This document shows, one piece after another, positions 8,929 through 28,474 of a stretch of 64,000 nt of DNA. Where the stretch lies: positions 616,662 through 680,661 of the forward strand of contig NZ_JAMCCO010000001.1 of assembly GCF_023371205.1 (NCBI RefSeq), written 5' to 3'. Each line of letters starts with the position of its first letter. Position 1 is the first letter of the stretch. The notes beneath the pieces were generated by a model. That model saw nothing but the letters and a program-made list of their open reading frames with translations, was not told the origin of the DNA and did no database searches. The DNA comes from Parvivirga hydrogeniphila. Lineage in GTDB: Bacteria; Actinomycetota; Coriobacteriia; Anaerosomatales; Anaerosomataceae. The translations under genes and the position numbers were made by a program.

Positions 8929-10125
8929 GTGAAGCACGTCGTCGTGATCCTGGACGGCGCGGCCGGCTGGCCGCTCGAAGAGCTCGACGGAGCGACGGCC
9001 CTCGAGGCGGCCCGGACCCCCAACCTGGATGCGCTGGCGGCAGAAGGCATCGTCGGGCTCGCGCAGACCGTGCCGCCAGGCGCCGAGCCCTCGTCTTCAG
9101 CCGCGTGCACCTCGATCCTCGGGTACGACCCGGTGCGCGACTACGTCGGCCGCGGCGCCATCGAGGCGGCGAGCATGGGCATCTCGCTCGCAGACGACGA
9201 GGTCGCGCTGCGGATGAACCTCGTCCACGTGGCTGACGGCATCATGCGGTCGTACTCGTGCGGACACATCGCCACAGACGAGTCCCGCCGGATCGTGGAA
9301 GACCTCGCGCGCGAGCTCGCCGACGAGACCTTCGCCTTCTGTCCGGGCGTCGCGTACCGGCACATCCTCGTGGTGAAGGGACACCCGGAGCTTCTCGATG
9401 CCCGGTACACGCCGCCGCACGACATCTCCGACAAGCCGGTCGAGGGTCACGAGCCGCGCGGCTCGGGCGCGGATCTGCTGCTCGACCTGATGGAGCGAGC
9501 CCGCGAGGTCCTCGCAGCCTCGGCTACGAATCGTGCCCGCATGGCGCGTGGCGAGCTTCACGCGACGGAGATCTGGCCGTTCTGGCCGGGCGCTGCGCCG
9601 CAGGGGCTGCGACCTTTCACGGAAGCGCGGGGAATCCGAGCGGCGCTCACCTCCGGCGTCGATCTGCTCAACGGGCTCGCGGTGCTGTTCGGCATCGACC
9701 GCCTGGACATAGCTGGCGTTACGGACGGCCCGGACACCGACTACGCAGCGCAAGCTGACGGCGCGCTCGCGGCGCTCGCAGACCACGATCTCGTCGTCAT
9801 CCACGTCGAGTCGCCGGACGAGGAAGGGCATGCAGGCGACGTAGCGGGCAAGATCGCCGCCATCGAGGCGATCGACCGCGAGATCGTCGGCAGGATCCGC
9901 GCGTGCGGCAAGCCGCTTCGGGTGCTCTGCATGCCCGATCATCCCACGCCGATCGCGCTCAAGACGCACGTGGGCGAGCCGGTCCCGTTCGTCGTGCACG
10001 GCCCTGGCATCGAGGCACGCGGCGCACGCGCGTTCAACGAACGGACGGCTGCCGAGACCGGCCTCGTGGTCGACCCGGGGCGGCTCGTCATGGACATGCT
10101 GCTTGAGGCGGGGACGGTGGGATGA
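8929..10125 (+). CDS. apgM: Cofactor-independent phosphoglycerate mutase, archaeal type
   Basis: Alkaline-phosphatase-superfamily mutase interconverting 3- and 2-phosphoglycerate; about 398 residues. The metal-binding VVILDGAAGWP opens the protein, the catalytic serine is within PSSSAACTSILGYDP, and the C-terminal metal ligands are in HVESPDEEGHAGD and CMPDHPTPI. The domain order matches the ApgM/ThiC-associated family rather than GpmI. GTG 8929 is preceded by GGGAGGAGG. The stop overlaps the next ATG (ATGATG). Confidence 0.93.
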   Translation: MKHVVVILDGAAGWPLEELDGATALEAARTPNLDALAAEGIVGLAQTVPPGAEPSSSAACTSILGYDPVRDYVGRGAIEAASMGISLADDEVALRMNLVHVADGIMRSYSCGHIATDESRRIVEDLARELADETFAFCPGVAYRHILVVKGHPELLDARYTPPHDISDKPVEGHEPRGSGADLLLDLMERAREVLAASATNRARMARGELHATEIWPFWPGAAPQGLRPFTEARGIRAALTSGVDLLNGLAVLFGIDRLDIAGVTDGPDTDYAAQADGALAALADHDLVVIHVESPDEEGHAGDVAGKIAAIEAIDREIVGRIRACGKPLRVLCMPDHPTPIALKTHVGEPVPFVVHGPGIEARGARAFNERTAAETGLVVDPGRLVMDMLLEAGTVG

Positions 10126-10727
10126 TGGACCTTTCGGAGTACCAGGCGAAGCGCGACTTCACGCGTACGCACGAGCCGGCAGGCGAGGCAGCGTCGACGG
10201 ACGACCGCGGGGCGGTCCACGAAGGCGGTGCGCCGCTTCGGTTCGTGGTGCACAAGCACGCCGCCGCGCGCCTCCACTACGACCTTCGGCTCGAGTGGGG
10301 AGGCGTGCTCAAGTCGTGGGCGGTCCCGAAAGGGCCGTCGCTCGACCCGGCGCAGAAGCGGCTTGCGGTGCAGGTCGAAGACCACCCGCTCGAGTACGCC
10401 TCGTTCGAAGGCGTGATCCCTGAAGGCGAGTACGGAGCGGGCACCGTCATGGTCTGGGACGAGGGCGTCTGGAAGCCCGTGGGCGATGCGGACGAGGGTC
10501 TCAAGCGAGGGTCGCTCAAGTTCGTGCTGCACGGCTCTCGGCTCAAAGGGGCATTCGCGCTCGTGCGCATGCGCAGGAAGCCTGGCGATACGCGGGACAA
10601 CTGGCTGCTCATCAAGGAACGGGACGAGCACGCCTTGAGCGTGAGCGATGAGCATCTCGCATCGGCCGATGCGAGGTCTGTGGCGAGCGGCCGTACGATG
10701 GAGGAGATCGCCCGAGACGCGCGATGA
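10122..10727 (+). CDS. Stand-alone LigD-type 3'-phosphoesterase (PE) domain protein
   Basis: 201 residues that match only the DNA ligase D phosphoesterase module: FVVHKHAAARLHYDLRLEWGGVLKSWAVPKGPS, with the catalytic His/Asp in RLHYDLRLE, then VEDHPLEYASFEGVIPEGEYGAG. PE domains trim 3' ends during non-homologous end joining. No Ku, polymerase or ligase domain is fused or adjacent, so it may act with distant partners or independently. Translationally coupled to the upstream mutase gene. Confidence 0.9.
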   Translation: MMDLSEYQAKRDFTRTHEPAGEAASTDDRGAVHEGGAPLRFVVHKHAAARLHYDLRLEWGGVLKSWAVPKGPSLDPAQKRLAVQVEDHPLEYASFEGVIPEGEYGAGTVMVWDEGVWKPVGDADEGLKRGSLKFVLHGSRLKGAFALVRMRRKPGDTRDNWLLIKERDEHALSVSDEHLASADARSVASGRTMEEIARDAR

Positions 10728-10765
10728 CCCGGACGGAGCCGGGCCATCGCTCGAGGGAGGGTGTC

Positions 10766-12711: not shown

Positions 12712-12750
12712 TTGCGGTGGAGCGCGGGGGCGACATCGAGGGAGGACGCG

Positions 12751-14934
12751 ATGCGCACGAGCACACGCACACGGACCTTGATCGTTGCGGTGGCTGCTGC
12801 GGCGCTGGTTCTCACGGCGCTACCGCCTGTGCCGCCGGTACATGCCGCCGGCCTGAGGACCGCGCTTCGGCCGCTCGCCGCTGACGACGACGTCCCGGGC
12901 GTACCGCTCGACAGCTACCCGATAGTCTCGCGGACGGTCACGGGGACGCTTGACGCGCTGCCGATCTCGCTGCCTCCTGAAGACGCCGTCGACCTGTTCT
13001 CGGTCTACCTCGCTCCTGGCGAGCAGATGCACGCTCGTCTGACCGGGACGCCTGGGACTGACTTCGATCTCTACCTGTTCAGCCCTGACTCGGTCACGTT
13101 CATCGCCGCGCACGAGGTGGCGCGCTCTGCTGCTGCGGGAACGTCGGACGAGAGCATCTGCTACACGGCGAGCCGGCGCTTCGGTGCGGGTCGGTACTAC
13201 CTTGCGGTGGTGACCTGGAACTCCGAGGGTGCGTACCAGCTGGATTGGCACGTCGCGGGCCGCTCCGACGGGAACGTCCCTGGTCGCCCCCTGACAGCGA
13301 GCGTGGCGACGGGCGCGGTGGATCCTTACACCGATCGCGACGACGTCTATGCGCTTGCGCTCGCAGAGGGGCAGAGCCTGACGTGCACGCTCACTGCTGA
13401 GAGCCCCGCGGCGACCGTTGATCTCATCGTGTACCCGCCCGTGTGGAACAACGGCGGCATCCTCGAGCCGACGCTCGACGTCTACCACGCCGGTGATGCC
13501 GTCGCGCAGAGAGGTTCGACCATCACGATGACCGTGACAGTCCCGAGCGGGCGCGGCGGCATCTGGTACCTCGACGTGCGCGCGGTGACGCCGGGCACCG
13601 CGTACACGCTGGCATGGCAGGCGGCCGTCCCGGACGTCCCGGGCACGCCGCTTCAGAGCGGTGCCGCGACCGGCACGCTCGGTGCAAGCATGGTCTTCGC
13701 AGTCCCGGTGCGGTGGGGCCAGCGTCTCACCGGTTCGCTGTGGACGAGCCCGACTCCGGCAGCCGCCTCCGCGTGGCTGTTCGCGCCGGGCACGGCAAGC
13801 ACAGCGGACACGACGACGGCTGCGTGGGCGTCAGCGTGGCCTGCCTCGGACCAGCCGAAGCGCTTTTCGTGGATGTTTTCTTCGGAAGCAGACGAAGGCG
13901 TCGCATACCTGCGTATGGACTCGTCTCCGACGCCGCTGTTCGAGCAACGCGTCTGGAAGACGGTGACGAGCCGCCGGCTCTCAGGCGCCGATAGATACGC
14001 GACAGCAGTCCGAATCTCGCAGTCCGGCTTCCGCACAGGCTCGGACGTGGTGGTCGTGGCGAGCGGCGAGGGCTTCCCGGACGCGCTGTCGGCTGCCGGG
14101 CTCGCCGGTGCGTACGATGCGCCGCTCCTGCTCGTGCGCAAAACCGCGCTTCCTGACATGGTGCGGCAGGAGATCGACCGGCTGGGGCCATCACGGGTCT
14201 TCGTGATCGGCGGACCGGGCGCCGTCTCGGACGCGGTCGTCTCGGCGCTTGCGGCCCGGCCCAGCGTGAGAGTGGTGACGCGCGTGAGCGGCGCTGACCG
14301 CTACGCGACTTCCGCTGAGGTGGCCCGGCATGTGGTTTCGCGCCTTGGTCCGGACTTCGACGGCGTCGTGTACGTGGCGCGGGGCGACACGTTCCCCGAC
14401 GCGCTCGCCGTCTCGCCGCTTGCGTGGAACGGCCGCAGGCCAGTGCTGCTCACCAGATCTGACGCGCTTCCTAGCAGCGGGCGCGCAGTGCTAGGCGAGC
14501 TCTCCCCGTCGGAGGCGGTGGTGGTGGGCGGCTCGGGCGCCGTCTCCGGTGCGGTGTTCGGTGAGGTCGACGCGCTTGCGGAAACGACGCGCCGTGTGTG
14601 GGGCGTCGACCGGTACGCGACCGCCGCGGCGGTCGCCCAAGATGGCGTCAGAACGGGAACGGCGAGGCCCCGCTTCGTCGCCCTCGCAACGGGGGAGAAC
14701 TTCCCGGACGCGCTGGCAGGCGGACCGCTCGCCGGAGCCGAAGGCGGGGTGCTGCTGCTGTCGAAGCCGACCGCGCTGTCCACATCTGCGCAGGCATTCC
14801 TGGCAAGCGAGAAGGCGCGTGTCGAGGCGTGCCGTCTGCTCGGCGGCACCGGCGCTCTTTCGGACGCCGTGCGGAGCAGCGCCGACAGCGTGCTTTGGGT
14901 GACCTGGCCGGACGATCCTCCGACGTGGTGGTAG
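12751..14934 (+). CDS. Secreted protein with PPC-like domains and three cell-wall-binding repeats (CWB2)
   Basis: About 727 residues. A signal peptide (basic MRTSTRTRT, hydrophobic core, cleavage near VHAAG) starts at ATG 12751 behind GGGAGGA. Residues about 50-400 contain beta-rich segments of pre-peptidase C-terminal (PPC) character, e.g. DLFSVYLAPGEQMHARLTG and TDFDLYLFSP. From about residue 405 there are three CWB2 repeats of about 100 residues, each opening R(L/V)xGxDRYATA and containing GEGFPDAL- or GENFPDAL-like motifs and an IGGPGAVS-like loop. CWB2 triplets bind the anionic cell-wall polymer, so the protein is probably displayed on the surface. No enzymatic domain recognised. Confidence 0.92.
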   Translation: MRTSTRTRTLIVAVAAAALVLTALPPVPPVHAAGLRTALRPLAADDDVPGVPLDSYPIVSRTVTGTLDALPISLPPEDAVDLFSVYLAPGEQMHARLTGTPGTDFDLYLFSPDSVTFIAAHEVARSAAAGTSDESICYTASRRFGAGRYYLAVVTWNSEGAYQLDWHVAGRSDGNVPGRPLTASVATGAVDPYTDRDDVYALALAEGQSLTCTLTAESPAATVDLIVYPPVWNNGGILEPTLDVYHAGDAVAQRGSTITMTVTVPSGRGGIWYLDVRAVTPGTAYTLAWQAAVPDVPGTPLQSGAATGTLGASMVFAVPVRWGQRLTGSLWTSPTPAAASAWLFAPGTASTADTTTAAWASAWPASDQPKRFSWMFSSEADEGVAYLRMDSSPTPLFEQRVWKTVTSRRLSGADRYATAVRISQSGFRTGSDVVVVASGEGFPDALSAAGLAGAYDAPLLLVRKTALPDMVRQEIDRLGPSRVFVIGGPGAVSDAVVSALAARPSVRVVTRVSGADRYATSAEVARHVVSRLGPDFDGVVYVARGDTFPDALAVSPLAWNGRRPVLLTRSDALPSSGRAVLGELSPSEAVVVGGSGAVSGAVFGEVDALAETTRRVWGVDRYATAAAVAQDGVRTGTARPRFVALATGENFPDALAGGPLAGAEGGVLLLSKPTALSTSAQAFLASEKARVEACRLLGGTGALSDAVRSSADSVLWVTWPDDPPTWW

Positions 14935-14943
14935 CGGCTCGCG

Positions 14944-14972
14944 TTGACACCGCGCCGCCGCGCGCGTAGACT
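14944..14972 (+). promoter_or_regulatory. Promoter of the methionine operon
   Basis: Consensus -35 TTGACA (14944-14949), a 17-nt spacer and -10 TAGACT (14967-14972). Transcription would start near 14979, leaving an untranslated leader of about 358 nt that holds the T-box. Confidence 0.75.
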
Positions 14973-14994
14973 TCGGCACCAACCTCATACGTGC

Positions 14995-15317
14995 CGTTGA
15001 TGGGGATGAGTACGCGGGACCGGTAGGTCCGCCAGAGAGCCGGGGCAGCTGAGAACCGGCGTCCGAAAGCCCGCGGAACATGGCCCCAGAGGCATCCGGA
15101 GGAAACGCTCTTCAGCGGAGTAATGCCGGACGGACGCCCCCGTTATCGCAGGCTTCGTGAGCATCGGACCCCCTCGGTCGACTCCCGCCGGCCGAGCGGA
15201 CACGCCACCGGTCCCGTGCTCGAGATGAGGCCGCGCGACGCGCGGCGAAGTCGGGTGGTACCGCGAAGGCCCAGGCGCCTCTCGCCCTGACAAGGACTGT
15301 CGGGCGGGAGGCGTTTT
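14995..15317 (+). ncRNA. T-box riboswitch with methionine specifier
   Basis: Stem I is readable. GGGG and GCGGG on the 5' side flank GAGTA and pair with CCCGC and CCCC on the 3' side. They enclose a specifier loop GAAC-ATG-G with ATG at 15080-15082. The distal AGAGAGCCGG...GCTGAGAACCGG element is present. The T-box core GGGTGGTACCGCG is at 15253-15265; its TGGT bulge would pair with an ACCA tRNA end. An intrinsic terminator follows. Uncharged tRNA-Met should stabilise the antiterminator and switch on the downstream homocysteine/methionine operon. Confidence 0.93.
15274..15317 (+). terminator. T-box-controlled intrinsic terminator
   Basis: GCCTCTCGCCCTGAC pairs with GTCGGGCGGGAGGC (one G-U pair, one bulge) around a 7-nt loop and runs into GTTTT at 15313-15317. 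The 5' arm follows the T-box core closely enough to be alternatively used in an antiterminator. Confidence 0.85.
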
Positions 15318-15336
15318 GCATACCAGGAGGTGTGTG

Positions 15337-16509
15337 ATGGCGAAGACGTGGGACGAGATCAACGAGCGCATCGTCTCGGGCGCAGCGGTGGTGCTCACGG
15401 CCGAGGAGTTCGCCGAACTAGCGGCGGGCGTTGGCGTGAGCGAAGCGGCCGCGCGCGTGGACGTCGTGACGACCGGGACGTTCGGCCCGATGTGCTCTTC
15501 AGGTGTGATGCTCAACTTCGGGCACAGCGACCCGCCCATCCGCATGAGCCGCATCACTTTGAACGACGTGGAGGCGTACGGCGGCCTGGCGGCCGTCGAC
15601 ACCTACCTGGGCGTGACGCAGCAGAGCTCGACGCGTGGCATCGAGTATGGCGGCGCGCACGTGATCGAAGACCTGCTTGCTGGCAAGGCGGTGCGGCTCA
15701 GAGCGTGGAGCTCTGGCACGGACTGCTATCCGCGCACCGAGATCGACACGTGGGTGCGGCTTCAGGACCTCAACCAGGCGTACTTCTTCAACCCACGGAA
15801 CGCGTACCAGAACTACGCGGTGGCGGTGAACTCATCCGAACGCGTGCTGCACACCTACATGGGCACGCTCCTCCCGCACCTGGGGAACGCCACGTACTGC
15901 TCCGCAGGCGCGCTCTCACCGCTGTTGAACGACCCGACCTACCGGACGATCGGCGTGGGCAGCCGCATCTTCGTCGCGGGCGCCCCGGGATTCGTCGCCT
16001 GGGAAGGGACGCAGCACAACCCGAACCAGCAACGGGACGAGCATGGCGTGCCGTTGGCGCCGGCGGGCACGCTCGCGGTCATTGCCGACATGAAACGTGC
16101 ATCGACGCGGTTCTTCGCCGCCGCATCGATGACGGGGTACGGTGTGAGCGCGTTCGTCGGCATCGGCGTCCCGATCCCCGTGCTCGACGAAGAGATCGCC
16201 GCGACGCTTGCGCTCACCGACGCCGACATCTCGGCGACGGTGTTCGACTACGGGGTGCAGCGTCGCAGCCGCCCCGCGCTCGGCCAGGTGACCTACGCTG
16301 AGCTCCGATCCGGCACGATCGAGGTGCAGGGCAAGAAGGTCCCTACCGGCCCCATCAGCTCGCGTGCGAAGGCGCGGGAGATCGCAGCGGAACTGAAGCG
16401 GTGGATCGCCGAGGAGCGCTTCACGCTCGCCGAGCCGCTCAAGCCGTTGCCGCAGCCTGGCGAGCAAGGCGTCAAACCGCTGGAGATCCGAAGCGAGGAG
16501 GCGATATAG
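15337..16509 (+). CDS. Homocysteine biosynthesis protein, DUF39 (COG1900)
   Basis: 390 residues, no signal or membrane segment. DUF39 proteins are required in methanogens for making homocysteine from aspartate semialdehyde and sulfide. C53 (PMCSSGVMLNFGH) and C130 (SSGTDCYPRTE) are the conserved-looking cysteines expected to carry persulfide chemistry. Unlike some archaeal versions there is no C-terminal CBS pair. ATG 15337 follows CCAGGAGGTG. First gene of the T-box operon; the next gene begins directly after the stop. Confidence 0.9.
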   Translation: MAKTWDEINERIVSGAAVVLTAEEFAELAAGVGVSEAAARVDVVTTGTFGPMCSSGVMLNFGHSDPPIRMSRITLNDVEAYGGLAAVDTYLGVTQQSSTRGIEYGGAHVIEDLLAGKAVRLRAWSSGTDCYPRTEIDTWVRLQDLNQAYFFNPRNAYQNYAVAVNSSERVLHTYMGTLLPHLGNATYCSAGALSPLLNDPTYRTIGVGSRIFVAGAPGFVAWEGTQHNPNQQRDEHGVPLAPAGTLAVIADMKRASTRFFAAASMTGYGVSAFVGIGVPIPVLDEEIAATLALTDADISATVFDYGVQRRSRPALGQVTYAELRSGTIEVQGKKVPTGPISSRAKAREIAAELKRWIAEERFTLAEPLKPLPQPGEQGVKPLEIRSEEAI

Positions 16510-16917
16510 ATGCCGCGCAAGAGGCTCGACCTCACGTTCCCGCCCCGGCAGGCCACGAAGCCGGTCACGTACCACCTGGTGAAGGACTTCGACTTGGTGC
16601 CGAACATCCTGCGAGCACAGATCCATCCGGGCCAGGAGGGCCGCATGGTTCTCGAGGTGACCGGTCGGAAGGAGGACTTCGAGGCCGGCGTCGCGTTCTT
16701 GGAGTCCGAAGGCATCGTGGTCAAGCCTGCGGCGACGGACATCTGCCTAGACGAAGAGAAGTGCGTGCTCTGCGGTCTGTGCACAGCCGTGTGCCGCCCC
16801 GGCGCTCTCACCTTGAACGGCAGGGGCGATGAGCTCGTCTTCGACAAAGACAAGTGCGTGTACTGCGAGGCGTGCGTGGTAGCCTGTCCACGACGGGCCA
16901 TCACGCTCAGCTTCTAG
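16510..16917 (+). CDS. NIL domain-ferredoxin fusion protein
   Basis: 135 residues. The N-terminal half (about 15-75) is a NIL domain, as found at the C-terminus of MetN. The C-terminal half holds two 4Fe-4S clusters: C85/C88/C91 with C95, and C116/C119/C122 with C126. In methanogens the NIL-ferredoxin gene neighbours DUF39 and is needed for homocysteine synthesis, probably delivering electrons for sulfur reduction. It abuts the DUF39 stop with no gap. C79 just before the clusters is an extra cysteine. Confidence 0.92.
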   Translation: MPRKRLDLTFPPRQATKPVTYHLVKDFDLVPNILRAQIHPGQEGRMVLEVTGRKEDFEAGVAFLESEGIVVKPAATDICLDEEKCVLCGLCTAVCRPGALTLNGRGDELVFDKDKCVYCEACVVACPRRAITLSF

Positions 16918-16936
16918 CCAGGAGGAGGTGACGCTC

Positions 16937-17278
16937 GTGCCGCAGCTCGGATTCCTGCAGGCGTTCGTCGTGCTCGTGGTCGTGTCGCTCGCGTTGGCCG
17001 TGGCGGCGCTCCCGGCCGGCGCCCGGGCAGGCGCCCGCGCCGGCCGCCGCGTGCTGCAGGCGAGCAGCGCGACGCTGCTGGCCGGCCTCGCGGGATGCGT
17101 GGCGTGGGGGGCCTCGTCAGGAGAGCTGCGCGTGTTCTGGAGCGAGATGGGGCTGGATGCGGTGGTGCAGATCGGCGCGTTCGTGCTCATCGTGTACTTC
17201 ACCGCGCACAACTTCGCATCGAGATACCTCGACGACAGGGCGGCAGAGGAGCGGAAGGAGGGCGCGCAGGATGCCTGA
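16937..17278 (+). CDS. Small membrane protein in the methionine operon, unknown function
   Basis: About 113 residues with three hydrophobic segments (FLQAFVVLVVVSLALAVAAL, SSATLLAGLAGCVAWG, AVVQIGAFVLIVYFTAHNF), a basic loop (ARAGARAGRRV) and an acidic C-terminus. GTG 16937 lies 9 nt after GGAGG; GTG 16928 is too close to it. It overlaps metH by 8 nt. I recognise no family. Its fixed position between the sulfur genes and metH suggests a membrane partner of the pathway, for example sulfide handling, but this is inference. Confidence 0.75.
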   Translation: MPQLGFLQAFVVLVVVSLALAVAALPAGARAGARAGRRVLQASSATLLAGLAGCVAWGASSGELRVFWSEMGLDAVVQIGAFVLIVYFTAHNFASRYLDDRAAEERKEGAQDA

Positions 17279-19661
17279 TGTCGCGGCCCGGCTTGGCCGT
17301 GAGGTGCTCGTCGTCGACGGGGCGATGGGCACGATGCTGCAACGCGCCGGCATACCGACCGAGCAGCCGGGCATCCAACTCAATCTCATCGCCCCGGACG
17401 TCATCGCTGAGATACATCGCAGCTACGTGCTCGTCGGGGCGGACTGCGTCACCACGAACACCTTCGGCGGCACGCGCCCGAAGCTTGCGCAGCACGGTTT
17501 GGAAGACATGTTGGATGACCTCAACCGCGCAGGCGTCCGCCTCGCGCGCGAGTCCGGTGCGCAGCACGTGCTCGCAGACGTCGGTCCGACCGGCCTCGTG
17601 ATGGAGCCGCTGGGCGCTGCGACGTTCGACGAGGTGTACGCGCACTTCTTCGAGCAGGTGCAGGCGCTTGCGGTCGAGTCGCCGGACGCGATCCTCATCG
17701 AGACGATGACCGACATCGCCGAGGCGCGCTGCGCGGTGCTCGCCGCGCGGGACGCGTGCGACCTCCCGGTGTTCGTGACCGTCACGTTCGGCCGCAGCGG
17801 GGTCATGGACCTCTCGGGCACCCCGCCCGAGACGGCGGCTGTCATCCTCGAGGCGGCGGGCGCGGCAGCGGTCGGCATCAACTGCGGGCTCGGCCCAGCC
17901 GAGATGCTGCCGCTCGTGGAGCGCATGGCGCGCGCGACAGCGCTTCCCATCATCATCCAGCCGAACGCGGGCATCCCGCGCATCGTCGACGGCGCGACGG
18001 TCTTCCCGGGCACCGCCGATGAGATGGGCTCGTACGCCGCGAAGTTCGTGGAGGCAGGGGCGTCGGTCGTGGGCTCGTGCTGCGGCTCGACCCCGGCGTT
18101 CACCGGCGCGATCGTCGATGCCGCCAAGCACCTTCCCGTGCGCGCACGGTCCGGACGAGGCCCGGGCGTGACGCTTGCGAGCCCGCGCCGCACGGTGACG
18201 ATCGGCGGCGGACGCCGCATCGTTGCGATCGGCGAGCGGATCAACCCCACCGGCAAGAAGGCGCTCGCCGAGTCGCTCAAAGAAGGGTCGATGGCGATCG
18301 TACGTCAGTTCGCCGCGGAGCAGGCCGCAGCAGGGGCAGACGCGCTGGACGTGAACGTCGGCGCCGCCGGCGTGGATGCGAAGCAGGCGCTTCCCGCAGC
18401 GGTGCTCGCGCTTTCGGGCTCGTGCGACCTGCCGCTCGTGCTCGACACGACGGACGCGGATGCGCTCGAGGAGGCGCTCAAGCTGTATCCCGGGCGCGCG
18501 CTCATCAACAGCGTGAACGGCGGTGAGGCGTCGATGAGCGCGGTGCTGCCGCTTGCGAGGCGCTACGGAGCGGCGGTGCTCGTGCTCGCGCTCGATGACG
18601 ACGGCATCCCGGCGACGGCCGAGGGCCGCGTCGCGGTGGTGGAGCGTGTGCGTGGGTGCGCCCACGACGCAGGACTTGCCGACGACGACCTGCTCGTCGA
18701 CTGCCTCGTGCTCACAGCCGCGTCCGACCCCGGCTCAGCGGCGGTCACACTGGAGGCGCTGCGTCAGGTGAAGTCACGGTGGGGCCTTGCGGCCGTGCTC
18801 GGGGTGAGCAACGTGAGCCACGGACTGCCCGGGCGCTCGACTCTGAACGCCGCGTTCTTGGCGATGGCGGCCGGTGCAGGCCTGGACGCTGCCATCGTGA
18901 ATCCGGCAGACGCTGAGGTGATGCGAACGGTAGCGGCCGTCGATGCGCTCCTCGGTCGTGACGAGCGCGCCCAGCGGTGGGTCGCGCTTGCCGCGGAGCG
19001 CGCGCCCGAGGCGGCGCCGGAATCGGCACGCGACGAGGACCTGCTCGCGCTCGCGATCGAGCGGGGCGACGCGGATGGCGCTCCTGGGCTGGTGAAGCGG
19101 CTGATCGCTCGCGGCGTGCGGCCGCAGGACGTGATCGCGTCGGTGCTCACCCCCGCGATCCAGCGCCTCGGTGACGCGTACGGGCGGGGCGACGTCTTCT
19201 TGCCGCAGCTCATCGCGGCCGCGGACGCGATGAAGGCGGCCGTCGAGGTCGCCAAGCGTCACCTGCCACCAGGCGAGGGCGTTTCGCTGGGGCGCGTGGC
19301 CTTCGGCACCGTGAAAGGTGACATCCACAGCATCGGGAAGGACATCTGCATCTCGATGCTCGAGAGCTACGGGTTTTCTGTGGACGACCTCGGCGTGGAC
19401 GTGAGCGCGGAGCGGTTCGCCGAGGCGGCCCTTGACGCGGACGTCGTGTGCGCGTCCGCGTTGATGACGACGACGCTTTCGGCGATGGAGGAGGCCGTGC
19501 GTGCTGTCGCATCGACGGGGACACCGGTGCTCGTGGGCGGCGCCGTGGTGACAGCCGACTACGCGCGCTCGATCGGGGCAGGCTACGCCGAGGACGCTCC
19601 GGGGTGCGTGGAGGCGGTGCGCGCTGCGCTCGCGAAGCGCCGAGGCGAGGAGGGCATCTGA
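17271..19661 (+). CDS. metH: Methionine synthase, B12-dependent, lacking the activation domain
   Basis: 796 residues. Homocysteine methyltransferase barrel (about 1-300) with DGAMGTMLQ and zinc ligands C205, C270 and C271. Pterin-binding domain (about 330-590; GERINPTGKKALAE and DVNVGAAGVD). Cobalamin cap and binding domain (about 600-796) with KGDIHSIGKD, where H686 is the lower axial Co ligand. The C-terminal AdoMet reactivation domain of E. coli MetH is absent, as in acetogens and many anaerobes, so reactivation needs a separate protein not seen here. ATG 17271 overlaps the preceding gene. Confidence 0.95.
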   Translation: MPDVAARLGREVLVVDGAMGTMLQRAGIPTEQPGIQLNLIAPDVIAEIHRSYVLVGADCVTTNTFGGTRPKLAQHGLEDMLDDLNRAGVRLARESGAQHVLADVGPTGLVMEPLGAATFDEVYAHFFEQVQALAVESPDAILIETMTDIAEARCAVLAARDACDLPVFVTVTFGRSGVMDLSGTPPETAAVILEAAGAAAVGINCGLGPAEMLPLVERMARATALPIIIQPNAGIPRIVDGATVFPGTADEMGSYAAKFVEAGASVVGSCCGSTPAFTGAIVDAAKHLPVRARSGRGPGVTLASPRRTVTIGGGRRIVAIGERINPTGKKALAESLKEGSMAIVRQFAAEQAAAGADALDVNVGAAGVDAKQALPAAVLALSGSCDLPLVLDTTDADALEEALKLYPGRALINSVNGGEASMSAVLPLARRYGAAVLVLALDDDGIPATAEGRVAVVERVRGCAHDAGLADDDLLVDCLVLTAASDPGSAAVTLEALRQVKSRWGLAAVLGVSNVSHGLPGRSTLNAAFLAMAAGAGLDAAIVNPADAEVMRTVAAVDALLGRDERAQRWVALAAERAPEAAPESARDEDLLALAIERGDADGAPGLVKRLIARGVRPQDVIASVLTPAIQRLGDAYGRGDVFLPQLIAAADAMKAAVEVAKRHLPPGEGVSLGRVAFGTVKGDIHSIGKDICISMLESYGFSVDDLGVDVSAERFAEAALDADVVCASALMTTTLSAMEEAVRAVASTGTPVLVGGAVVTADYARSIGAGYAEDAPGCVEAVRAALAKRRGEEGI

Positions 19662-19662
19662 C

Positions 19663-20334
19663 GTGATCATCACGAGACAGCGCGAATGGCAGCGGGTGCT
19701 CGACGACCTGGCGTCGGTGGGCGCGCGAAGCGTGTTCGTTGTGGGATGCGGGGAGTGTGCCACAGCTGCGCACACCGGCGGCGAACCGGAAGTGGCGGAG
19801 GCCCGCGAGCGTCTGTCCGCGGCCGGCTTTGCGGTGACGGGTTCGACCGTCCCCGAGGTCACGTGCCACGCGGGCGGCGTGAAGCTCGAGGCGCGCAAGC
19901 ACGCGGCCACCATCGATGCCGCCGATGCGATCGTCGTGCTCGCCTGCGGCGCCGGGACGCAAACGGTGGCCGACGCCGTGGCAAAACCGGTGTTCCCTGG
20001 GCTGGAGTCGGCGTTCCTCGGCACGGTCGTACGCCATGGGGTGTTCGAGGAACGCTGCCAGATGTGCGGCGAGTGCGTGCTCGACGCCACCGGAGGCATC
20101 TGCCCCGTCACCACCTGTCCGAAAGGCCTGCTGAATGGCCCGTGCGGCGGCATGTGGGACGGCATGTGCGACGTCGTGCGCGACCGCCCGTGCGTGCACG
20201 TGCAGATCCGCGAGCGGCTCGCCCAGCAGGGCAGAGACGTCGCGCGCACGCTGCCGCCGAAAGACCACTCCAAGAAGCTCAAGCCCGCGAAGCTGAGCGT
20301 GCGGGCGAGCGGACCGAGCGGGAGCGCGCGATGA
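19663..20334 (+). CDS. metV: MetV-like methylenetetrahydrofolate reductase C-terminal domain protein
   Basis: 223 residues. The C-terminal half carries the cysteine-rich MTHFR_C signature CQMCGECVLDATGGICP...CPKGLLNGPCGG, which binds a metal or Fe-S cluster. The N-terminal half is a Rossmann-like domain (VVGCGECATAAH...AIVVLACGAG). In acetogens MetV partners MetF to form a reductase without classical NADH use. GTG 19663 starts one base after the metH stop; its own stop overlaps metF (ATGA). Confidence 0.9.
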   Translation: MIITRQREWQRVLDDLASVGARSVFVVGCGECATAAHTGGEPEVAEARERLSAAGFAVTGSTVPEVTCHAGGVKLEARKHAATIDAADAIVVLACGAGTQTVADAVAKPVFPGLESAFLGTVVRHGVFEERCQMCGECVLDATGGICPVTTCPKGLLNGPCGGMWDGMCDVVRDRPCVHVQIRERLAQQGRDVARTLPPKDHSKKLKPAKLSVRASGPSGSAR

Positions 20335-21212
20335 GCCGCCTGCGTGACGCGCTCGAGCGCGGCGAGTTCGTCATCACCGGCGAGATCGCTCCGCCGCGCG
20401 GCGCGGACGTCTCGGCGATGCGCAAGACGATGGGTCTCGTGGGTCCTTTGTGTCACGCGCTCAATATCACCGACAACCAGGGCGCCTCGCTGCACATGTC
20501 GAGCCTCGGCGCGTGTCTGGTGGCGCTCGAGATGGGATTCGAGCCGATCTTCCAGCAGACGTGCCGCGATCGGAACCGGCTTGCGCTGCAATCGGACCTG
20601 ATGGCTGCGTGGGCCCTCGGTATCGAGAACCTGCTTGTGGTGACGGGGGACGACGCGCGAAGCGGCGACCATCCGCAAGCCAAAGGAGTGTTCGACATCG
20701 ACTCGACGCACCTGTTGCAGATCGCGTCCGGCATGAACGAGGGCCAGGACATGCAGGGCCGTCCGCTCGCAGGTAAGACGGGATTCTACCTCGGCGCGGC
20801 GATGTTCCCCGAGGCGGAACCGTGGGACGCGCAGCTCGCCCGGACGGTCGGGAAGATCGAGGCCGGCGCGCGGTTCTTCCAGACGCAGGCCGTCTTCGAC
20901 TTGGACAAGCTCGCTCGCGCTGTGGACGCGGTGCACGCGCACGGCGCGAAGGTCATCGCGGGCGTGCTGTTCTTGCGCAGCCCGCGTGTGATCGACTTCG
21001 TGAACGCCCACCTGGCGGGGCTCATGGTGCCTGAGCATGTCGCGCGGCGGATCAGACAGGCCGCAGACCCGCTGGAGGCGGCGATCGACCTTGCGGTCGA
21101 GCAGGTGGCGGCCATCCGCGAGGTCGCGGACGGTGTCCACGTCATGCCACTCGGCCTCGACGCGCGGGTGCCGGAAGTGCTCGAGCGCGCAGGCGTCGTG
21201 CCGCAACGCTAG
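20331..21212 (+). CDS. metF: Methylenetetrahydrofolate reductase
   Basis: 293 residues, MTHFR barrel. The N-terminal catalytic glutamate lies in ITGEIAPPRG, FAD-site residues in LLVVTGDDAR, and the folate-side GARFFQTQAVFD motif is present. Produces 5-methyl-THF for MetH, closing the route from one-carbon units to methionine in the operon. Start ATG 20331 is coupled to metV. The two likely form one complex. No clear terminator follows within 190 nt. Confidence 0.95.
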   Translation: MSRLRDALERGEFVITGEIAPPRGADVSAMRKTMGLVGPLCHALNITDNQGASLHMSSLGACLVALEMGFEPIFQQTCRDRNRLALQSDLMAAWALGIENLLVVTGDDARSGDHPQAKGVFDIDSTHLLQIASGMNEGQDMQGRPLAGKTGFYLGAAMFPEAEPWDAQLARTVGKIEAGARFFQTQAVFDLDKLARAVDAVHAHGAKVIAGVLFLRSPRVIDFVNAHLAGLMVPEHVARRIRQAADPLEAAIDLAVEQVAAIREVADGVHVMPLGLDARVPEVLERAGVVPQR

Positions 21213-21405
21213 CTACGCACCGCGTGCCGCACTGCGGGAGCCCCCGTGCATTGCGCACACCGCGGTGCCTCTTCCGCCGTAACCTTCTGAAGCCGTCGCG
21301 CGTTAATCAGGTGAAAAGTCCTGAAAGCATCGATGAACAACAGGGGGCGGCGTGCTACGATTGCGGACGCACACCGATCATCCGATCAGCAAGCGCGGTG
21401 AGACG

Positions 21406-22086
21406 ATGGGGCTTTTCGGCGAACAGCTCTGCCGGTGCGACCTCGAGGCTCGGATCAAGACCTACGGTGCGCTTGCCGATGTATTCGGAGGCACCGCCGA
21501 GGAAGCGGCCGCAGGTGTCGTCTCGCTGGGGGGCGCGGGTTCGTGGTGCTCGCTTGCGTTCTACGATGAGAACGCCATCCAAGCGGCGTGCGCAGAGGCG
21601 GAGCGTGCGGCGCGCGATCCTGGTGAAGCGGCTCGCTTCTGTGACGAGCGTCAGGCGATCATCGGGGCTGAACGGTTCGACCCCTTCGTCCACCGGGTCT
21701 CGCCGTGCGAGGCGATGTACGTCACCGACAGGCCCGAGGACCTCGTGAGGCGCCTCAGTGCTCTGTACGAGAAGAGCGGCTACGTCGTGCGTCACCTGGT
21801 GTCGTGCGAGTCGCACATCGCGGTCGAGCTCGATTACATGCGGTTCCTTTTGGAGCGGGTACGCACTGGAGACAGCGGAGCGTCTGATCAAGCGGCCGAC
21901 TTCTTCCTCACGCACCTCTCAGGCTGGTCGATCTTGTTCGCTGTCGCATTCGGTGATGCGGCCAGCCATCCCATCTCGCGGTGTGCGGCGATCACGCTCG
22001 ACCGCTTCTTGTCGTGTGAAGAGCACGTCATACGCAGCAGCGTTCCTGCTAACTGCATCCAGTGCCGTCTGGCCGGCTCGAGCTGA
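21406..22086 (+). CDS. TorD/DmsD-like redox-enzyme maturation chaperone
   Basis: About 226 residues, all-helical. The segment SCESHIAVELDYMRFLLERV followed by ADFFLTHLSGW is the core of TorD-family chaperones, which hold molybdoenzyme precursors before cofactor insertion and Tat export. Several extra cysteines (CRC near the start, CIQC at the end) are present. ATG 21406 gives the family-like N-terminus; an upstream GTG at 21352 is less likely. No client oxidoreductase is encoded nearby. Confidence 0.75.
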   Translation: MGLFGEQLCRCDLEARIKTYGALADVFGGTAEEAAAGVVSLGGAGSWCSLAFYDENAIQAACAEAERAARDPGEAARFCDERQAIIGAERFDPFVHRVSPCEAMYVTDRPEDLVRRLSALYEKSGYVVRHLVSCESHIAVELDYMRFLLERVRTGDSGASDQAADFFLTHLSGWSILFAVAFGDAASHPISRCAAITLDRFLSCEEHVIRSSVPANCIQCRLAGSS

Positions 22087-27745: not shown

Positions 27746-28474
27746 ATGCCCTACGAGCCGCGCATATACCGCGATCACGTCGACCCGGCGGGGCTTGCGC
27801 GCTTCGAGGTCGTGTTCGCAGAGACCGACCTGTTCGTGGCCGCGGACCGCGATCTTACGGAAGAAGCGCTGCGCACTGTCAAAGAGCTGCGACGCGGACT
27901 CGACGCGTACGTCGCGGCCCACCCGCGCTTCGCTGAGAGCTTGGCGCCCGTCGAGGTCGAGCCGAGCGCGCCGGCGATCGTGCGCGAGATGGCCGAGGCG
28001 GGCAGGCTCGCCGGCGTCGGGCCGTTGGCGGCCGTGGCAGGCGCGGTCGCAGAAGCGGTGGCCCGTGCGCTCGCGCCGCTGTCGCGCGAGGTGATCGTCG
28101 AGAACGGCGGCGACGTGTACCTTATCACGCGCCACGAGCGTGCGGTGCGCATTGACGCAGGCGGCTCGCCTCTGTCCGGCCGCGTGACGGTGCGGCTGGG
28201 ATCGGCTCCCCACGGCGTGGCCGTGTGCACATCGTCTGCAACGGTCGGCCCGAGCCTGAGCCTCGGTTCGGCGCACGCGGCGACAGTGGTCGCGCGAAGC
28301 GGGGCACTCGCGGACGCGGCTGCGAGCATGCTCGGGAACCTCGTGCATCGCCCGTCCGACGTGCAGACGGCTGTCGAGCGCGTCGTGGCGGTGCCTGGCG
28401 TCCTGGGCGCGGTAGCGATAGCAGGCGAGACGATGGCGGCCGCGGGCGAGATATCGCTCGCTCCCGTGGCTTGA
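27746..28474 (+). CDS. UPF0280 family protein (COG2122, ApbE-like)
   Basis: 242 residues. The core REVIVENGGDVYLI and the APHGVAVCTSSATVGPSLSLG motif identify UPF0280, related in fold to ApbE. In Methanosarcina a COG2122 protein works with DUF39 and NIL-ferredoxin in homocysteine/persulfide sulfur assimilation. Both partners occur in the T-box operon about 11 kb upstream. C in AVCTSS is the only cysteine and a candidate nucleophile. Divergent from the ferritin-GGDEF gene. Confidence 0.88.
   Translation: MPYEPRIYRDHVDPAGLARFEVVFAETDLFVAADRDLTEEALRTVKELRRGLDAYVAAHPRFAESLAPVEVEPSAPAIVREMAEAGRLAGVGPLAAVAGAVAEAVARALAPLSREVIVENGGDVYLITRHERAVRIDAGGSPLSGRVTVRLGSAPHGVAVCTSSATVGPSLSLGSAHAATVVARSGALADAAASMLGNLVHRPSDVQTAVERVVAVPGVLGAVAIAGETMAAAGEISLAPVA

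Follow-up and report, generated by a model that had tools for sequence, protein, structure and literature searches.

A methionine-specific T-box leader precedes a DUF39-type homocysteine and methionine operon in Parvivirga hydrogeniphila and its order

Our findings place an operon for homocysteine synthesis and methylation in Parvivirga hydrogeniphila very probably under the control of a transcriptional T-box specific for tRNA-Met, a reading that draws on the anatomy of the leader with its specifier and terminator, on gene content and on conservation, as observed here. The methionine-specific T-box occupies positions 14987-15317 of the window (the whole 64,000-nucleotide stretch of DNA that was analysed); a conserved promoter precedes it, and an operon (15337-21212) encoding HcyBio (DUF39), a NIL-ferredoxin, a small membrane protein, MetH, MetV and MetF follows. 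Judged from the sequences compared, this predicted pairing of T-box and DUF39 operon is real and is common to the whole order Anaerosomatales.

Results

The leader is a full-length T-box

Downstream of the CWB2-repeat gene, which ends at 14934, the stretch leading to the operon holds a full-length T-box; its alignment to the family model shows the characteristic features, among them a Stem I that has the specifier loop, the GA motif and the distal loop. The elements outside the inserted hairpin described below are as follows.

14944-14972, plus strand: promoter, sigma-70-type TTGACA-N17-TAGACT (sequence; same-place box in relatives)
14987-15092, plus strand: T-box Stem I, with GA motif at 15005, AGAGA bulge at 15033 and distal loop at 15044-15057 (RF00230 alignment)
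15076-15083, plus strand: specifier loop GAAC-AUG-G, codon 15080-15082 = methionine (RF00230 alignment; AUG in relatives)
15094-15154, plus strand: Stem II (S-turn GAAA/AGUAA) and Stem IIA/B pseudoknot region (RF00230 alignment)
15228-15252, plus strand: Stem III and purine flank GAAGUC (RF00230 alignment)
15251-15290, plus strand: predicted antiterminator, UGGU 15256-15259 in the 7-nt bulge UGGUACC (minimum-energy fold; UGGU invariance)
15275-15317, plus strand: intrinsic terminator, which overlaps the antiterminator and excludes it (folding energy against shuffles)

The consensus promoter, the T-box with an ATG specifier in a GAAC-ATG-G loop, the TGGT bulge and the intrinsic terminator named by the first-pass annotation were thus all located. 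A TTGAC-N17/18-TANNNT box is kept at the matching position in nearly all homologous leaders, and the IIB complementarity, read by eye, co-varies (e.g., AGGC/GCCT in L038 and GGCC/GGCC in L041). The upstream neighbour (12712-14934, plus strand) ends 10 bases before the promoter and codes for a protein that looks secreted and carries three CWB2 cell-wall-binding repeats.

A scan with the T-box covariance model, the check proposed at first pass, aligned Rfam family RF00230 over model positions 1-219, the whole model, to positions 14987-15292 with a score of 63.6 bits (E 1.4e-13 for a 521-nt search; E 1.2e-13 at genome scale), although this falls short of the gathering score of 93 bits, which is a curation threshold and not an anatomical feature. 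The default Rfam scan of the 64-kb window was therefore empty, and a scan by E-value recovered the match. Three of the four other T-boxes of the genome, which precede ilvD-ilvB-ilvN, trpE, ileS and pheS-pheT (gene names read from translations), likewise score below this threshold, and it is exceeded in only 19 of 61 relatives, though nearly all have T-box matches. A chance match to the T-box model was considered and is excluded by conservation.

The terminator has a folding energy of -33.4 kcal/mol (z -6.26), with none of 200 shuffles equally stable, and a terminator is predicted in every homologous leader folded. By folding, antiterminator and terminator are mutually exclusive. The antiterminator stretch alone is no stabler than its shuffles (z 0.16), and support for the predicted structure comes not from energy but from the sequence of the T-box and from how well it is conserved.

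Conservation across the order and the identity of the tRNA

Upstream regions of DUF39 were read in 42 Anaerosomatales genomes, one of them cut off by a contig end, and 39 of the 42 have a T-box before DUF39. The specifier is AUG in all 38 readable leaders and UGGU is present in 39 of 39 T-boxes, which bears out the methionine specificity originally claimed. Two genomes (G042 and G056; loci L156 and L157) have DUF39 without a T-box, and this counts against the T-box explanation. In both loci a NUDIX-hydrolase-like open reading frame lies directly upstream of DUF39, and both genomes encode a full-length PF01053 enzyme. The Stem I signature of the methionine T-box occurs in 40 of 69 genomes of the order and in none of the 17 genomes found to lack DUF39 among the 61 scanned for it; a reversed control pattern gave no match. 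No second methionine T-box was found by this signature, there being one match per genome except in G017, where one of two matches lies 26 bases from a contig end.

Outside the order, DUF39 is preceded by a methionine T-box in three loci of Aquicultor type (L084, L088 and L090), in L119 (Actinomycetota) and in L134. In the Aquicultor locus L090, the DUF39/NIL-ferredoxin pair is followed by a gene (9686-10744, plus strand) for a 352-aa protein that looks UROD/MetE-type by eye and matched no Pfam or NCBIfam family. Among seven Clostridial and related loci scanned, beside which an eighth source (L144) is titled actinobacterium, a SAM riboswitch precedes the DUF39 pair in four.

If the leader responds to charging as known T-boxes do, RNA polymerase would start at about 14979, and uncharged tRNA-Met would base-pair through its CAU to the AUG specifier and through its ACCA end to UGGU, thus allowing the antiterminator to form and the operon to be transcribed. 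With charged tRNA-Met, the terminator at 15275-15317 would form and transcription would stop. Two CAU tRNAs of the genome were examined, one with an elongator-type and one with an initiator-type anticodon stem; the UGGU bulge fits both because both end in ACCA, and the UGGN bulge matches the discriminator base of both genes. Tentatively, the leader may sense initiator tRNA-fMet rather than elongator tRNA-Met, which would couple methionine synthesis to translation initiation. The sequence is compatible with this, as the two tRNAs share CAU and the ACCA end, and the met leader of Staphylococcus aureus is a precedent for initiator specificity (PMC3771891), although no sequence feature here favours the initiator over the elongator and the S. 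aureus specifier mutant result leaves the discriminating feature undefined. That leader resembles ours in placing an AUG-specifier T-box before a methionine operon and in having a long variable region before the antiterminator. It differs in serving the metICFE route, where DUF39 is found here, and in the CodY control of the S. aureus operon.

A lineage-specific hairpin inserted in the leader

The leader agrees with the full-length Stem I transcriptional type of RF00230 in its Stems I, II, IIA/B and III, antiterminator and terminator, but carries an additional hairpin of about 63 nt, which the first-pass annotation did not name, with the following parts.

15159-15221, plus strand: lineage-specific inserted hairpin, ~63 nt, between Stem IIA/B and Stem III (folding, covariation, model search)
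within 15159-15221, plus strand: P1 helix GAGCAU.CGGACC/GGUCC.GUGCUC, then apical stem
15182-15189, plus strand: loop CUCCCGCC
15205-15209, plus strand: internal-loop segment CCACC

The insert folds better than its shuffles (z -2.5), and across 25 leaders five pairs of the outer helix, P1, show changes on both sides; covariation of the apical stem is not countable, as automatic alignments misplace it. A covariance model (R1) built on 22 inserts, with L145, L151, L153 and L155 left out, scores 81.7 bits here and recovers the four left-out leaders at E 7.8e-7 to 5.6e-4. Searched against 396 genomes of the phylum, it matched its own genus and gave one marginal match, beyond which the 393 other Actinomycetota genomes yielded nothing. 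The insert was not found in sampled T-boxes of other operons of the order, and it is missing from four leaders (L146, L147, L080 and L154), in the first two of which the T-box is otherwise intact. By model search, the insert is confined to Anaerosomatales. As far as can be told, it is not the same as the variable region of the S. aureus leader. In T-boxes with a TGG specifier (tryptophan-type; L002 and related, e.g., L008 and L015), the position between Stems IIA/B and III is occupied by another hairpin, GGGTAT...GTACTGCAGG.

Two complementarities suggest a role for the insert that we regard as possible and, on balance, unlikely: that it is an internal mimic of the tRNA end combined with a latch. 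In the OFF state, (A)CCACC, resembling the tRNA acceptor end, would base-pair to the T-box at GGUGG(U) and shut the antiterminator; in the ON state, the loop CUCCCGCC would pair with the freed 3' strand of the terminator, GGCGGGAG, and lock readthrough. The loop has the consensus CC(C/U)(G/A)C(C/U), and all leaders that have it show complementarity between loop and terminator 3' strand. Own loop/terminator pairs fit better than swapped ones (permutation p 0.0046 for 26 distinct pairs, with relatedness ignored), loop and terminator of L151 have both changed in a matching way, to CCCCACC and GGUGGGG respectively, and in L061 the terminator 3' strand is kept although its 5' strand has changed. 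This complementarity may be partly a by-product, since the terminator 3' strand is tied to the antiterminator via its 5' partner. For the complementarity of CCACC to the T-box, a covariation test is impossible because the T-box does not vary, and the segment is not essential, since it is missing in L145, L148 and L153. The complementarities are reasons to test this weakly supported hypothesis, not evidence that the latch works, and we did not find a tRNA-end mimic and latch of this kind described for T-boxes in the literature.

We consider it improbable that the insert is instead a second sensor (e.g., of a sulfur metabolite or SAM) that would make the leader a two-input switch. Conserved unpaired residues inside its conserved helix do count in favour of a sensor, but the conservation of the loop is equally explained by complementarity to the expression platform, the insert has no Rfam match, and the two leaders lacking it with a T-box otherwise intact also argue against this reading. 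In addition, a SAM riboswitch is already present elsewhere in the genome: a single SAM-I riboswitch lies directly before metK (L195 2055-2185, contig C3; 38.6 bits, under the Rfam cut-off). Genomes of the order usually have one SAM riboswitch, with one copy in 60 of 69.

Operon genes and the predicted homocysteine route

The sulfide route to homocysteine was first known from methanogens. The genes predicted to serve it and the subsequent methylation here are the following.

15337-16509, plus strand: hcyS-like DUF39/COG1900 protein (HcyBio), 390 aa (PF01837, 492.8 bits, positions 1-349)
16510-16917, plus strand: NIL domain and two-[4Fe-4S] ferredoxin, 135 aa (PF09383, Fer4)
16928-17278, plus strand: small membrane protein, 116 aa (no match in Pfam or NCBIfam)
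17271-19661, plus strand: metH, 796 aa (Pfam: homocysteine methyltransferase, pterin-binding, two B12 domains)
19663-20334, plus strand: metV (DUF5981; PF12225)
20331-21212, plus strand: metF, methylenetetrahydrofolate reductase (PF02219)
27746-28474, plus strand: COG2122/UPF0280 protein, third component of the DUF39 route (E 1.1e-42 to Clostridial COG2122 from a DUF39 operon)

Pfam agrees with the six-gene list given at first pass, the membrane protein being without a family in Pfam or NCBIfam, and the gene order is conserved in relatives. If the enzymes have the activities of their known families, the DUF39 protein and NIL-ferredoxin, helped by COG2122, would convert aspartate semialdehyde and sulfide to homocysteine, which MetH would methylate with methyl-THF provided by MetV and MetF. 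Homologues of the 116-aa protein occur in 22 of 69 genomes of the order, the gene lying between those for NIL-ferredoxin and MetH on the contigs examined; the protein is fast-evolving and belongs to the methionine operon of roughly one genome in three, and one genome (G030) has a homologue where DUF39 was not found. After metF, a gene at 21352-22086 (plus strand) encodes a nitrate-reductase-delta-like (TorD-type) chaperone.

The description of the operon as complete is slightly overstated: the genes for synthesis and methylation are there, but that for COG2122, missed at first pass, lies outside, about 6.5 kb downstream of metF, and MetH is without a reactivation domain. In many relatives the COG2122 gene is on the same contig as DUF39, about 10-20 kb away. 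The activation domain PF02965 was absent from the whole genome, MetH included, so reactivation of MetH must come from elsewhere; one RACo-type corrinoid activator is present and may serve it. Both predicted partners of DUF39, NIL-ferredoxin and COG2122, are encoded in the genome, and COG2122 was shown genetically to be needed for the route in Desulfovibrio (PMC5764234). In a set of 61 related genomes, the presence of COG2122 goes with that of DUF39 (40/4/4/13, Fisher p 6e-7, with relatedness ignored), and DUF39 is inversely associated with full-length PF01053 enzymes (17/27/15/2, p 5e-4, with relatedness ignored), the two being found together in 17 of the 61. A full-length PF01053 (MetB/C/Y-type) enzyme was not found in the P. 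hydrogeniphila genome, where the family model gave only cross-matches of about 35 bits, and for this reason the DUF39 operon is probably its sole homocysteine route.

It is highly improbable that the product of the DUF39 protein is coenzyme M or another thiol, as for an MMP16-like enzyme, and not homocysteine. A match to TIGR03287 (Methanogenesis marker 16) does exist, but at 124.9 bits it is weak and far under the cut-off of 363.95. The HcyBio domain is present over its full length. C53 and C130 are invariant in an alignment of 10 homologues from the order and may correspond, by position only, to Cys54 and Cys131, the two conserved cysteines of the Methanosarcina acetivorans COG1900a enzyme (PMC12068725). 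The setting, in an operon with metH and a methionine T-box in a genome where another homocysteine route was not found, also speaks for homocysteine.

Discussion

Control of homocysteine synthesis and methylation by a tRNA-Met-specific T-box remains our strongly preferred reading, against which we count the sub-threshold Rfam score and a MetH lacking its own activation domain, beside the two DUF39 loci mentioned above. That the same Rfam score might betray a decayed or constitutive T-box is most improbable, given that specifier and T-box are invariant in the readable leaders and the terminator is kept throughout.

The genome shares with the DUF39/NIL-ferredoxin/COG2122 route of MA1821-22 and Desulfovibrio (PMC5764234) the same three proteins, and has no full-length MetB/C/Y-type enzyme, but here the route is combined with metH-metV-metF behind a T-box. 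Clostridial DUF39 operons with a SAM riboswitch likewise place DUF39 and NIL-ferredoxin behind an RNA switch that reports methionine status, although the switch senses SAM there and would sense tRNA charging here. The initial view that T-box control of a methanogen-like route is unusual therefore needs dividing: the DUF39 route itself is not unusual in anaerobic bacteria, while its control by a T-box rather than a SAM riboswitch was not found reported. Our search for a T-box on DUF39/COG1900 or in Anaerosomatales/OPB41 found no report in the open-licence literature, and an earlier description elsewhere, e.g., in regulon databases, is possible.

T-box insertions are listed in every domain of these RNAs, with their structure and function unexplained (PMC7583486), and the hairpin described here offers a concrete and testable example. 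In summary, the DUF39 homocysteine route would gain control by amino-acid charging across a whole bacterial order. With the T-box on the DUF39 operon and the SAM riboswitch on metK, two methionine signals would therefore be split between the synthesis of methionine and its use.
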